64,000 nt of DNA, taken from positions 1-64,000 of the forward strand of contig JAAZAV010000014.1 in assembly GCA_012514145.1 (NCBI GenBank), read 5' to 3'. Below the pieces are notes generated by a model. That model was not told the DNA's origin. It saw nothing but the letters and a program-made list of their open reading frames with translations, and ran no database searches. The DNA is from Clostridiales bacterium (GTDB lineage Bacteria > Bacillota > Clostridia > Oscillospirales > CAG-272). The position numbers and the translations under genes are program-made. Position 1 is the first letter of the stretch; each line of letters begins with the position of its first letter. Shown one piece after another: positions 1 through 53,856 of this stretch.

Positions 1-1112
1 ACATAATGTGTATGTTCCATTCCTAGAGCAGCCGCTTTCTCGTTCATGAGTGCTGCGAATTTGGACTCGGTTGTTGCTACCGCACGCGCAAGTCCGATAG
101 AACATTCGGACCCTGAGGACAACAAACACCCGTAAAGAAGGTCAATTATTTTAACCTGTTCACCTGCTTTGAAACCGGCAGTCGATGCGTTCTGACGGTC
201 TATATACTCGAACATATCGCTGTCCAAAGTGACCAGCATCTCTGTATCACCGATATTTTCTATCGCAATAATAGCGGTCATTATTTTGGTTAACGATGCC
301 GGAAAGAGCTCTATATCGGGGTTCTTGTAAGCCATGATTGAGCCAGTTTCCATATCTATCATTAATATGGATTCCGCGCTGTATTCGTCCCCAAGCTGAA
401 AAGCATAATCGTTCGCATTAAGACTCTCGGGCGGCTCATCGTGCCCGGGTATACTGCTGATAGTGAAACTGCGCAGAACCGGAGGCGTGGTGTCATTTCC
501 GCACTGTGATACAAGCACTATTAGTGTAATAAATATAAGCAGCAAAGCCGCTATACGCGGTATCCACATACGAAAAGGATTGTATTTACCGGTTTTTGCT
601 CTGGTTTTGCGGTTGACATTATATCTTGCACCACTTCGCATTTGTGAAAAGCCTGCGCCGCCTGACGCTGCATTTGATACATTTGATAAGGAGTTATCTG
701 CTCCTACGGCGGATACGGATCTTCTCTCAGTACCCTGACGCGGCTTTTGCTGCACTCGTTTGGGCGGTATATAGCCTTCCGGCAGGCGATAAAGCGTGTC
801 GGAGGTTTTCTGTTTGTTCTGAAATGAGCGTGTTCTCGGGTTGTTTTGACTTACTGTGATGGGGCGATTTGCATTTCTATTGTGAGCCTTATATGGGTTA
901 TTGCCTTTTATGTTACTGTTCCTGTTGCCTGTACCGATGTTATTTGCCATATCACGCGGTAAACCGCGGCTCGCACCGTTATTAGTGTATCCATAACCGC
1001 TGTTATTCTGATCAGGATTCACCCGTCTCTGTGTACCGGAATCTCCAACAATCGAACTGTATCGGTTATTACGATTATCTCCGCGAGGGTACCGGTTGTT
1101 GTTTCGATTCAT
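1..1112 (-). CDS. D-alanyl-D-alanine carboxypeptidase (peptidase S11), N-terminally anchored; 3' end outside window
   Basis: A peptidoglycan DD-carboxypeptidase, which trims the terminal D-Ala from stem peptides outside the membrane. About 370 residues are visible and the C-terminus runs off the window. Residues 1-180 are an Asn/Arg/Ser-rich, low-complexity, probably disordered cytoplasmic tail. Residues 185-203 form one membrane segment. The catalytic domain starts near 235. The nucleophile motif SLTK is at 273-276, preceded by the usual run MIDMETGSIMAYKNPD. The second motif is at 333-335 but reads SGS where the family usually has SxN. LMNEKAAALGM follows at about 355, as expected for the family. 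The start ATG overlaps the recombinase stop as ATGA, so the two are probably cotranslated. Family PBP5/DacF enzymes normally have a cleaved signal and a C-terminal amphipathic anchor; here the anchor is N-terminal. Family assignment is firm; activity depends on the altered second motif and the unseen KTG motif. Confidence 0.88.
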   Translation of the reverse strand, partial: MNRNNNRYPRGDNRNNRYSSIVGDSGTQRRVNPDQNNSGYGYTNNGASRGLPRDMANNIGTGNRNSNIKGNNPYKAHNRNANRPITVSQNNPRTRSFQNKQKTSDTLYRLPEGYIPPKRVQQKPRQGTERRSVSAVGADNSLSNVSNAASGGAGFSQMRSGARYNVNRKTRAKTGKYNPFRMWIPRIAALLLIFITLIVLVSQCGNDTTPPVLRSFTISSIPGHDEPPESLNANDYAFQLGDEYSAESILMIDMETGSIMAYKNPDIELFPASLTKIMTAIIAIENIGDTEMLVTLDSDMFEYIDRQNASTAGFKAGEQVKIIDLLYGCLLSSGSECSIGLARAVATTESKFAALMNEKAAALGMEHTHY

Positions 1113-2149
1113 TGATTGTCCTCATCTGCCGGTTCATCCTTCGAATTCGATTTAAGATCTGCCGACGGGGCTTTTATCTCTGATAAAGGATTGGCTTTTA
1201 CCGCATCCTCCATCTGTTTATCGCTGAGATGTGTGTAAATCTGTGTTGTATTTAGCTGTTCATGTCCGAGTATATCTTTTAGTACACGGACATCAACCTG
1301 TCCCGTCTGATACATCAGCGTGGCCGCTGTGTGCCTTAGTTTGTGAACCGAACACTTTTTACTTCCCAAACCCGCCATGTCAAGATATTTATATACCATC
1401 CATTGAACGGTTTTTATACTGATACGGGTACGGCGGCTGCTTATGAACAGCGCATTTTTATGCGATGGGTTAATTTCCATTGTCTGCCGCACCAGAAGCC
1501 ATGCAGTGAGAGCGGAACGGCATGCATCATTAAGGTATATAACGCGTTCTTTACTTCCCTTCCCAATTACCATGAGCGACTGCATGTCCCGGTCCATACG
1601 TGTTATGTCAATCGAAACCAGTTCTGACAGTCGCATCCCGGTATTTAAAAACAATGTAAGTATGGCATAATCGCGTTCGCGGGTCTTGCTCTCTGAGTCT
1701 GTACGCACAGCGTCAAGTAAAGCTATGCTTTCTTCAAGCGTCAAGAACTTTGGGAGTTGTTTTGAGCTTTTTTTAGGAGCATCTACTGCCGCAGCCGGGT
1801 TATCTTCAATAAGATGTCTTGTGTTTGTAAGATAATTATAAAAACTCTTTATGGCAGACAGCTTGCGAGAACGCGTTCTGGCTTTGTTCTGTCTTTCATT
1901 TGCGGTATATGTGATAAACTCCAGAATTATTTCCGGTGTTACCGCTTCATACAGGCCTATGTCGGCGGCAGATAAATCGAGAGCAAGCGCCTCATCGCTG
2001 TCCTGAACCAGCGACCGCTCCCGTGCCATAAGAAAACGGGTGTACATGGTCAGATCAATAAGATACTGCTCCACAGTCCTCGGTGAACGGTTCTGCAGTG
2101 AACTCAGATAGTTTGAATACTGATTTAATATTTCGGGATTACTGTTCAT
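1109..2149 (-). CDS. Tyrosine recombinase, XerC/XerD type
   Basis: Site-specific tyrosine recombinase, 346 aa from this start. It has an N-terminal SAM-like core-binding domain (about 1-115) and a C-terminal catalytic domain. The catalytic set is visible: R173 (NTGMRLSEL), K198, H269 and R272 (HKLRH), H296 (ILGHE) and the nucleophile Y305 (IYTH). A TTG 69 nt upstream (2218) keeps the frame open, but the extra 23 residues do not resemble the family; ATG at 2149 gives the usual Xer N-terminus. Neither start has a clear ribosome site. It is followed by the DD-carboxypeptidase with an ATGA overlap. A xerD-like gene near a dacF-like gene is known in Bacillota, so a housekeeping chromosome-resolution role is more likely than a phage integrase. 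There are no phage genes or attachment-site repeats nearby. Confidence 0.85.
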   Translation of the reverse strand: MNSNPEILNQYSNYLSSLQNRSPRTVEQYLIDLTMYTRFLMARERSLVQDSDEALALDLSAADIGLYEAVTPEIILEFITYTANERQNKARTRSRKLSAIKSFYNYLTNTRHLIEDNPAAAVDAPKKSSKQLPKFLTLEESIALLDAVRTDSESKTRERDYAILTLFLNTGMRLSELVSIDITRMDRDMQSLMVIGKGSKERVIYLNDACRSALTAWLLVRQTMEINPSHKNALFISSRRTRISIKTVQWMVYKYLDMAGLGSKKCSVHKLRHTAATLMYQTGQVDVRVLKDILGHEQLNTTQIYTHLSDKQMEDAVKANPLSEIKAPSADLKSNSKDEPADEDNQ

Positions 2150-2263
2150 AATATTACTAATATGATATTTTGTTGGATATAATGTAAATTTTCGTGTTAT
2201 AGCTTGTATTGTTTTCAATATTAGGATAAAATAAGGATAATCAATTTCGTTTCAGAGGGCTGT

Positions 2264-2881
2264 ATGCAAGGCTTTATTGACTTTATCAAAGACAATTCTT
2301 ATAATATGGTGAAGATGTTCATATACCAGTTCGGTATGACCGTCTTCGGTCTTACGCTTTCACTGGCTACGGCATCCAACGATACTCTGCTGCTTATCGC
2401 TGGTTGCTTCTCCGTGCTTTTTTATATGTATCTGCTATACACCATGACCTGGGAGATTGGAGCTAAGGATCGTGTTCGCGTTGACAGCGGTCGAGCCACC
2501 GCAATGCCGCTTAAGGGGCTTTATATATCCATCGGCGCAAACACACTCAATATCATACTCGGTCTGCTCATCGTCATCGGTTATTTCTCTGTCAGAGAGT
2601 GGATACCTGTTGTAGATCCGGCATCCGGCGCTACAGTTATGACCGGCGAACCTCTTTGGGCGATCAACCTGTATGGTACAGCAAAAACCATAGATATGCT
2701 GCTTCACGGTATGTATACCGCCTTTATCCGTCTGTATATGTACGATAATCCCTTTGCTTATCTTATAATAATACTGCCGGCACTGATTATCTGCACAGTC
2801 GGATATCTGTTAGGCAGCCGAAATTTCAAGCTGATTAAAACCAATATTAACGCATCCAAACTAAAAAAGAATGACAAGTAA
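2264..2881 (+). CDS. Hypothetical four-helix membrane protein
   Basis: 205 aa, family not recognised. Four hydrophobic segments are visible at about 18-37, 45-65, 86-112 and 163-185, with a short charged C-terminus ending in Lys-rich residues. The loop before helix 4 carries GLWAIN-type polar residues with no recognisable motif. The start is supported by AGAGGG seven bases upstream of ATG. It is divergent from the recombinase and is followed by a hairpin terminator before radA, so it is probably a single-gene unit. No function is proposed. Confidence 0.7.
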   Translation: MQGFIDFIKDNSYNMVKMFIYQFGMTVFGLTLSLATASNDTLLLIAGCFSVLFYMYLLYTMTWEIGAKDRVRVDSGRATAMPLKGLYISIGANTLNIILGLLIVIGYFSVREWIPVVDPASGATVMTGEPLWAINLYGTAKTIDMLLHGMYTAFIRLYMYDNPFAYLIIILPALIICTVGYLLGSRNFKLIKTNINASKLKKNDK

Positions 2882-51474: not shown

Positions 51475-53856
51475 TTATTGTTTGGAGCCCTTTTTAACAA
51501 TGAATCTGTCAAATATCAACAGTGCACATGGCAGAATAAAGAGAACCAAAAGGAGCGAACAAGCAGTTCCGTATGCAATCATCATACATGTCTGCGCAAT
51601 GACCTTTTGCGTCATAACTATACTTACGGTTACGCAGGATGCTATGAGAATAAGCGAAGATGACAGAATAGTTCTTATTGAGTTGTTCATAGATTCTCCG
51701 CACGCCTTAAGTTTATCACTTTGCTCCATCCGTGACTCACGGTAATTATCAAGCAGCAGTATTCCGTAATCTATCGTTGCTCCCATCAGAATGCACTGCA
51801 CCAGAATCAATGAAATGTAATTTATGGAGTAGCCCTGTATACCGACGATGGCAGTTGCTATAAATACTGCGGACTGAATCAGGATGACAAGTATAGCGGC
51901 ACTTCCGAAGGAACGAAAGGTAATCCACACTACGACTAAAATTGAAACAACAGTAAGAATCGTAATGAGATTCATTTCCTTTTCGAAACCATTGTTCATT
52001 TCATAAGCCATTATTGAACTGCCTATAAGATGTGGGGCTTTTGTGAAGCTGCTTTCCGATTTTTCTGACAATTCCGTTATAAATGAGAAAGTCTGAGGTT
52101 CTTCAGTCGGCAGATCGGCGGACACAATCATTCGGTTATATTGCTTGCCAACCAGCATATCTCTGCTTTCGTTGATTTGCTTTTCGCCGTCCTTAACCTG
52201 AGTGCGCATATCTTCATCGATAACCGCTGAGTAAGTTTCATCGGATAATACATCAGCATTTATGAAACGAATTAGCTCTTCGAGTGTAATTGAAAGATCA
52301 TCAACATCGAGCGTGGACATTCTTCGGATTTTCTGCATCTCCTCAATGTCGCTCTTGTCCTGATCAAGTTCCTCTGACAGCTCCTCAGCAGTCATTTTAA
52401 CGCTGTATATCCTGCGGCCGTCTTCTATTTTTTGTTTTGCATCCTCCAGTTCTGTCTTGTTCTTCTGAATTTCCAGTTTTCCATCTTCAATCTGACTGCG
52501 TCCCGAAGCAATCTCCGAGCGTCCTGCTTCTATCTGCTTTTTACCGTCTTCAATCAGTATTCTTGCCTCTGCCAATTGCTTCTTCTGAGCGGCTATCTGC
52601 CGTTTGCCCGCTTCAAGCTGTGCTCTTGCCGATGTCAATTGTTTCTTCTGAGTGGTTAATTCCTGTTTACCCGCTTCGAGCTGTGCTCTTGCCGACGTCA
52701 ATTGCTCCTTTTGAGCGGCTATCTCCTGTTTGCCCGCTTCAAGCTGGGCTCTTCCTGCCGCCAATTGTTCTTTTTGAGCGGTCAATTCCTGTTTGCCCGC
52801 TTCAAGCTGTGCTCTTCCTGCCGCCAATTGTTCTTTTTGAGCGACTATCTCCTGTTTGCCGGCTTCAAGCTGTGCTCTTCCTGCCGCCAATTGTTCTTTT
52901 TGAGCAGCTATCTCCTGTTTGCCGGCTTCAAGTGCCGCACGGCTTTCCTTGAGCTTTTGTTCCTGCTCACCTATCTGCTCTTGAATCATCTCATCAGTCA
53001 TGCCGGCAAGACGCATTTGCTCTTTATTGCTGTTTAATTCTGCTTCGCCTGCGCTTAACTGCTGTTCCTGCGCTAACAGTTCCGTTTCCGCGGCATTTAA
53101 CTGGGCCTCTCCCGAGCTCAACTGCTGTTCCTGCGCTGACAGCTCCGTTTCCGCGGCGCTTAACTGAGCCTCTCCCGCGCTCAACTGCTGTTCCTGCGCC
53201 GGCAGTTCCTTTTCTGCGGCACTTAACTGAGCTTCTCCTGCGCTCAACTGCTGTTCCTGCGCTGACAGCTCCGATTCCGCGGCGCTTAACTGAGCTTCGC
53301 CTGCGCTTAACTGCTGTTCCTGCGCTGTAAGTTCCTTTTCTGCGGCGCTTAACTGAGCTTCTCCTGCGCTTAGCGGCTTTTCCTGTTTCTTTATCTCAGC
53401 CTCAGCCTCCACTATCTTAGCCTCACCATCGATTATCTGCTGTTCCTGCGATAAAAGCTCTTTTTCAGACGCAATCAACTCGTCTTCGCTTTCATTGATC
53501 AGGGCTTCGTTATCGGCAATCTGTTTTTCAGCATCTATGAGCTGTTTTTCACCGTCCGATATTTCGATCTCGGCATCAGCAATTGTCTTTTTGCCGTCTT
53601 CCAGTTCGGCTCTGGCTTTTTTAATATCCGCTTTCTGTTCATCGCTCATAAAATCGGAATATGTGGGATTTTGGGCGATTTTCTCATCGATGTAGCAGAT
53701 AAGATCATAAGCCGTGATTTTCTCGTATGGCTCATTGTTTGAAGTTTCTTTGTAGAGCTGATACAGTATTTTTGCCTGATCTTCGGATATATCCATGTCT
53801 TCGGCAAACAAAGAATAATTATAGGATTTGCCTATGGTGTTCGAATAATCCTGCAC
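51475..53856 (-). CDS. MMPL/RND-family transporter, C-terminal half with long coiled coil (probably 5'-truncated)
   Basis: 793 aa from a GTG start with AGGAAG about 12 bases upstream. Residues 80-480 are a long coiled coil with two sets of 21-residue repeats. Residues 628-780 form five membrane helices with the MMPL signature GATIDYGILLLDNYRES near 692-708. Full MMPL proteins of Bacillota have two such membrane halves in about 1000 residues or more; the first half is missing. The same frame continues 12 codons upstream of the GTG with plausible protein sequence and then meets TGA TGA, so a 5' deletion is likely. A TetR gene starts 97 bp away in the other direction. Function as a half transporter is doubtful. 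Confidence 0.7.
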   Translation of the reverse strand: MQDYSNTIGKSYNYSLFAEDMDISEDQAKILYQLYKETSNNEPYEKITAYDLICYIDEKIAQNPTYSDFMSDEQKADIKKARAELEDGKKTIADAEIEISDGEKQLIDAEKQIADNEALINESEDELIASEKELLSQEQQIIDGEAKIVEAEAEIKKQEKPLSAGEAQLSAAEKELTAQEQQLSAGEAQLSAAESELSAQEQQLSAGEAQLSAAEKELPAQEQQLSAGEAQLSAAETELSAQEQQLSSGEAQLNAAETELLAQEQQLSAGEAELNSNKEQMRLAGMTDEMIQEQIGEQEQKLKESRAALEAGKQEIAAQKEQLAAGRAQLEAGKQEIVAQKEQLAAGRAQLEAGKQELTAQKEQLAAGRAQLEAGKQEIAAQKEQLTSARAQLEAGKQELTTQKKQLTSARAQLEAGKRQIAAQKKQLAEARILIEDGKKQIEAGRSEIASGRSQIEDGKLEIQKNKTELEDAKQKIEDGRRIYSVKMTAEELSEELDQDKSDIEEMQKIRRMSTLDVDDLSITLEELIRFINADVLSDETYSAVIDEDMRTQVKDGEKQINESRDMLVGKQYNRMIVSADLPTEEPQTFSFITELSEKSESSFTKAPHLIGSSIMAYEMNNGFEKEMNLITILTVVSILVVVWITFRSFGSAAILVILIQSAVFIATAIVGIQGYSINYISLILVQCILMGATIDYGILLLDNYRESRMEQSDKLKACGESMNNSIRTILSSSLILIASCVTVSIVMTQKVIAQTCMMIAYGTACSLLLVLFILPCALLIFDRFIVKKGSKQ
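52561..52938 (-). repeat. Six tandem 63-bp coding repeats (set 2)
   Basis: Encodes six 21-residue units of the form AQLEAGKQEIAAQKEQLAAGR, three heptads each, residues 307-432 of the MMPL protein. The units are near identical in DNA, and the end units have drifted more. Confidence 0.9.
53059..53373 (-). repeat. Five tandem 63-bp coding repeats (set 1)
   Basis: Encodes five 21-residue units of the form LSAGEAQLSAAEKELTAQEQQ, residues 162-266 of the MMPL protein. The period matches that of set 2, but the sequence differs. Confidence 0.9.

Follow-up and report, generated by a model that had tools for sequence, protein, structure and literature searches.

The window, that is, the whole 64,000-nucleotide stretch of DNA analysed here, is the 64 kb at the start of contig C6, in an assembly of 2.82 Mb (69 contigs, 85% complete). 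It opens with a dac gene encoding an S11 peptidase, an open reading frame of 370 codons on the minus strand that runs off the contig end; the 3' end of the gene is missing because the window starts at the contig edge. A search for this 3' portion across the rest of the assembly returned nothing beyond the truncated copy itself and, on contig C56, a distant S11 gene. The features of the locus are as follows:

3..1112, minus strand: dac, gene for an N-anchored Peptidase_S11 protein, ATG start, 3' end lost (open reading frame; PF00768 match, E 1.4e-24; contig start).
570..1112, minus strand: Asn/Arg-rich N-terminal tail, predicted to be cytosolic, residues 1-181, net charge +25 (composition; ranking on the contig).
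501..566, minus strand: single predicted transmembrane helix, residues 183-204 (hydropathy; low-confidence AlphaFold helix).
387..500, minus strand: predicted extracellular linker, residues 205-242 (sequence; lipobox pattern without a match here).
3..386, minus strand: Peptidase_S11 domain, first half only, covering profile positions 9-140 of 239 (profile match).
285..296, minus strand: SxxK motif, S273-L-T-K276 (alignment with relatives).
108..116, minus strand: second motif SGS, residues 333-335, replacing S-x-N (alignment with relatives).
1119..1123, minus strand: Shine-Dalgarno-like GAGGA, 6 nt upstream of the dac ATG (sequence).
1109..1112, minus strand: ATGA, where the xer stop overlaps the dac start by 4 nt (sequence).
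1109..2218, minus strand: xer, tyrosine recombinase gene (PF00589 match, E 1.3e-35).
2264..2881, plus strand: gene for a membrane protein, divergent from xer and kept next to xer-dac in relatives (no NCBIfam match).

The preliminary description had the peptidase gene translationally coupled to a Xer recombinase, and the ATGA shared by the two genes agrees with this. For xer itself, the first ATG at 2149 is a more likely start than the TTG at 2218. The protein resembles XerC and XerD in having both recombinase domains, but it scores below the NCBIfam equivalog cut-offs for either (223.6 vs 335.15 bits for XerC, 199.1 vs 329.6 bits for XerD). It also contains stretches with the usual catalytic residues. 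The membrane protein encoded on the plus strand has a Pfam Bac_rhodopsin score of 24.2 bits, under the cut-off of 24.6.

The layout of an N-anchored S11 protein with a tail ahead of its anchor is well supported, as far as sequence can tell. The sole helix directly follows the tail, in line with the N-terminal anchor proposed initially, and other S11 proteins with the same layout were found, forming the clade described below. The cleaved N-terminal signal of PBP5/DacF enzymes appears to be lacking, with 181 polar residues before the helix. The AlphaFold model of the protein is poor (mean pLDDT 40.4, from 3 sequences); it places a helix at residues 183-204 and gives residues 1-182 no secondary structure. 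A lipoprotein anchor was considered and rejected: the candidate sequence LVSQC has Gln before the Cys and fails the lipobox pattern, which ends in [AGS]-C.

The catalytic domain, described earlier as a normal S11 domain, deserves that name in part. Residues 243-370 match PF00768 with 87.3 bits over the available half, against a gathering score of 27.6, and the SxxK motif is present within PASLTK. The domain is, on the other hand, truncated at the contig end and carries SGS instead of the S-x-N of the PBP5/DacF class. The KTG region lies beyond the contig end; KTG or KSG is found in all 13 of the other xer-linked N-anchored relatives. Catalysis by the window enzyme may be inferred from these motifs.

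Is the tail genuine coding sequence? Its first 180 residues include 31 Asn, 23 Arg, 18 Gly, 17 Ser and 11 Pro, with a net charge of +24. The preliminary description spoke of about 180 low-complexity residues of Asn, Arg, Ser and Tyr followed by one helix; some 181 Asn/Arg-rich residues and a single helix are indeed found, while Tyr is a minor component (9 of 180). Compared with the 158 open reading frames of at least 180 amino acids on 224 kb of contig C6, the tail ranks first in Asn content (0.172, next 0.111), in Asn plus Arg (0.306 vs 0.194) and in net charge (+25 vs +17). The 180 codons stayed open in 0 of 20000 mononucleotide shuffles, and the later in-frame starts (codons 31, 55, 120, 158 and 182) have no comparable Shine-Dalgarno sequence. 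No further copies of the tail were found elsewhere in the genome at E values up to 10.

The closest relatives, three species of genus g26, provide an evolutionary view of a comparable tail. Their tails align in frame, without indels and at equal length, and a conserved block, QKPAINAFLP, precedes the helix in all three. Amino acid identity for the three species pairs is 64, 62 and 79% in the tail vs 79, 79 and 90% in the remaining protein, and the nonsynonymous to synonymous codon changes number 21:12, 22:10 and 12:12 in the tail vs 68:124, 68:127 and 32:92 in the rest. The g26 tail, aligned in frame and free of indels yet less conserved than the rest, therefore behaves on this measure like coding sequence, and it is fast-evolving.

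By these sequence indications, the tail of the window protein is almost certainly real. It is very unlikely that the tail is left untranslated and that translation begins instead at an internal ATG (position 641 or 569 of the window) shortly ahead of the helix. In-frame ATGs do occur at codons 158 and 182, and several homologues start near the helix, but the Shine-Dalgarno-like sequence and the overlap arrangement are found only at the ATG at 1112, the 180 codons are open with a strongly biased composition, and the tails of the sister genus are in frame with their length kept across three species. The chance that an assembly or contig-edge artefact fused a truncated S11 gene with sequence that does not belong to it is next to negligible: the gene sits at the extreme end of a contig in an assembly that is 85% complete, yet tail, helix and domain share one frame, and the order xer, tail, helix, S11 domain recurs in g26 and other genera.

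The protein belongs to a distinct branch of S11 enzymes. Of 59 relatives searched for S11, 58 gave matches, and a tree was built from 45 aligned proteins from the best loci, read by frame, together with two solved enzymes. In this tree the N-anchored S11 proteins form a clade of 29 members (support 0.92), where the window protein is sister to genus g26 (support 0.943). A scan for PBP5_C found it in none of 6 N-anchored members but in all 4 of the other proteins scanned; the C-terminus of the window protein is missing. The Asn of S-x-N is kept by 0 of 29 proteins inside the branch vs 15 of 16 outside; most branch members have Gly, Ala or Ser in its place.

The same division is seen in a wider sampling of the phylum (299 genomes), in which 27 of the best 30 S11 loci were classified, leaving out L226 (the window itself), L225 (pattern unmatched) and L238. 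Sixteen loci end 50-58 residues past KTG, and none of them has the S-x-N Asn; the other 11 extend 175-220 residues past KTG, and all 11 have it (one of these, L223, had already entered the 45-protein set as L016). The short-C-terminus, N-anchored loci without the Asn are L209-L222, L224 and L229. The layout had been contrasted with known PBP5/DacF enzymes as though it were exceptional, a contrast that finds no support here: S11 proteins that are N-anchored and lack PBP5_C are a common type in this phylum.

Several known systems help to place the branch. S11 DD-carboxypeptidases of the PBP5/DacF type share the PF00768 domain family and SxxK with the window protein. They differ in having PBP5_C, in a longer C-terminus (175-220 residues past KTG, vs 50-58 in N-anchored proteins), in keeping the S-x-N Asn, and in a signal-like helix at the N-terminus without a tail. 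By sequence, the best PDB match of a close relative, L071, is 1es3 (E 1.9e-26), a DD-transpeptidase chain with SGA at the second motif, followed by 1skf (E 6.2e-26). We take 1skf, 1es5 and 1es3 to be structures of the Streptomyces K15 DD-transpeptidase, an S11 enzyme. The likeness lies in the catalytic domain only, where the second motif SGC of 1skf aligns with SGA of L071; the solved chain, in contrast, has 262 residues and no tail, and the window domain is truncated. K15 falls among other S11 enzymes, outside the N-anchored branch, although tree support is low there. In the structure set of PMC12073871, 1ES5, with SGC, is the sole member of its SCG subgroup.

For a tailless xer-linked member, L093, the best NCBIfam match is VanY-D (NF000471, "transpeptidase-like"), which covers nearly the whole protein (E 2.9e-25). 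L093 nevertheless scores 89 bits vs the curated cut-off of 625 and is not a member of that family. Other N-anchored S11 proteins of the phylum (for example L033 and L034 of Cohnella; L209-L222) have the N-terminal helix, the short C-terminus and SG[AGC]; they differ in that their tails measure 0-47 residues and that a search of their neighbourhood turned up no xer. In the open-access literature, as far as its text could be searched, no tailed or N-anchored S11 protein and no xer-dac operon came to light; as evidence of novelty this silence is weak, since the search did not extend to most subscription journals.

Across the 29 branch members, the tail ahead of the helix ranges from 0 to 181 residues (median 28) and reaches at least 40 in 11; start codons of the relatives were picked by rule or by eye, and tail lengths may be off by some residues. 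The window tail is the longest of the 29, its length of 181 resting on one assembly of the genus. The g26 tails have 52-78 residues before the helix, with a net charge of +9 to +10. Sixteen tails have 25 residues or more; their net charge is above +3 in 11 cases and negative in four (down to -11), so that a cationic charge is not a rule; some tails in the branch are acidic or His-rich. The window tail is the longest version of a trait that varies across a common S11 branch, and no new kind of system.

The anchor also varies. The lipobox pattern is matched in L081, L093 and L094, tailless branch members that resemble lipoproteins, and the mode of anchoring therefore seems to switch often within the branch, judging from sequence patterns. 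Two N-anchored relatives, L008 and L017, have a tail of 45-63 residues and a lipobox-like pattern past the helix. Lipoprotein processing, if it takes place in these two, would remove the tail along with the helix, as a very long signal peptide.

What might the tail do? It is possible that it represents a neutral expansion that has no further function and is simply tolerated where the N-terminal anchor faces the cytosol, although we hold this reading to be on the doubtful side. It would account for tail lengths from 0 to 181 within one branch, for acidic or His-rich tails, and for the excess of nonsynonymous over synonymous changes in two of the three g26 pairs. Against it stand the exact tail length and the QKPAINAFLP block kept by three g26 species, the highest net charge on its contig in the window tail, and the richness in basic polar residues of otherwise dissimilar tails in several genera.

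A second possibility links the tail to its upstream partner, and it depends on how xer and dac are associated in relatives. The Xer protein was matched in 144 of the 146 genomes of the family. The survey of its surroundings covers 130 distinct loci: it leaves out genomes in which Xer matched only weakly or as a fragment (G099, G105 and G167 belong here), L055 and L078 (the same place in G025) were counted once, and about 1.1 kb or less lies downstream at L064, L132, L138, L141, L169, L180 and L190; G169 was left out of the xer-linked count. An S11 domain is encoded downstream of xer at 16 of the 130 loci, in 14 cases N-anchored (nine genera) and in two PBP5-type, the latter 306-350 nt from xer. 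The 14 N-anchored cases are tightly spaced, with gaps of -14 to +9 nt in 12 and exceptions at L080 (+62) and L096 (+47), and the xer-dac order, which the preliminary description suggested testing in relatives, is conserved there. At two further loci, L077 and L095 of genus g83, an S11-like gene without SxxK occupies the position that an active-type S11 gene has in other genera. No S11-like gene was detected downstream at 112 of the 130 loci, a few of which are cut by contig ends. S11-like genes are the commonest downstream neighbours of xer, and 63 downstream genes are singletons. Looking from the other side, an examination of 42 other S11 loci turned up no neighbouring xer.

In several relatives the other side of xer is flanked by the gene for the divergent membrane protein and by a gene that, from its sequence, we take to be RadA-like. 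A xerD-dacF cluster of B. subtilis was considered as the origin of the pairing but is not proposed here, the conserved neighbours being the RadA-like gene and the membrane protein; nor did the literature search, within the sources it reached, show such a cluster.

Conceivably, the ligands of the tail are DNA, RNA or septal proteins, and wall trimming would in this way be linked to chromosome resolution by Xer at the septum, an idea that goes back to the preliminary description. The net charge of +25, the translational overlap with xer, and the 14 xer-dac pairs among 130 Xer loci, with S11-like genes as the commonest downstream partner, would fit such a role. Tails of at least 40 residues, however, occur in 5 of the 14 xer-linked members and in 6 of the 15 unlinked members of the branch, and the fact that long tails are no commoner in the xer-linked group argues against a partnership between tail and Xer. 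Moreover, some xer-linked members are nearly tailless (2-9 residues in L093, L130, L081 and L096). Homologues of this kind, which begin almost at the helix, are among the outcomes that the preliminary description named as refuting, and they speak against a conserved tail function. Together with the 112 Xer loci lacking a detected downstream S11-like gene and the 42 S11 loci lacking a xer neighbour, this makes a tail acting with Xer unlikely; tail and xer linkage look independent in these genomes. A division-linked role for the enzyme, also proposed earlier, would be an inference.

The explanation that we favour, and regard as reasonably probable, is a membrane-anchored S11 DD-peptidase whose fast-evolving, mostly cationic and probably disordered cytosolic tail aids anchoring or surface binding, with the overlap with xer meaning co-expression only. 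The window protein would be a type II (N-in, C-out) membrane-anchored serine DD-peptidase from a branch that apparently dispenses with both the PBP5 C-terminal domain and the C-terminal amphipathic anchor. Outside the cell, going by its motifs, the enzyme would trim or transfer the terminal D-Ala of peptidoglycan stems. The tail would be a disordered cytosolic extension under loose selection for positive charge and polarity, not for sequence, and might favour stable N-in insertion or interact with polyanions, anionic lipids among them. The overlap with xer would lead to co-expression from one transcript and to nothing more specific.

The only other S11 protein in the assembly, on contig C56 (L002:1393-2727), keeps PBP5_C, but all three of its catalytic motifs are altered: the catalytic Ser is an Ala, S-x-N reads NAN and KTG reads NAG. 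It is likely, from these changes, to be a pseudoenzyme. A VanY-type peptidase is present, and no S13 peptidase was found in the assembly, which is 85% complete. Given that completeness and the fact that the gene itself is cut, dac may be the only S11 gene of the genome with an intact Ser/Lys pair. Elsewhere in the window, 51475-53856 on the minus strand encodes a 793-residue protein with long LSAGEAQLSAAE-type repeats ahead of membrane segments; the repeats probably form a coiled coil.

A bolder proposal would start from dac as the sole S11 gene with an intact, readable Ser/Lys pair. As the septum closes, the long polycationic tail would bind the nucleoid or the DNA of the terminus beneath it, translational coupling to xer would let the peptidase sense or await chromosome clearance, and tail length would be tuned by lineage. 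We regard this as a most unlikely reading.

In the xer-dac pair, the gene for a wall enzyme lies with that for the recombinase of chromosome resolution, a small case that can be put to the test. We judge the division of the S11 peptidases of this phylum by anchor and motif to be a more useful result than the tail, an elaboration specific to its lineage. If confirmed, the end at which the enzyme is anchored would predict the chemistry of its active site in poorly studied bacteria.
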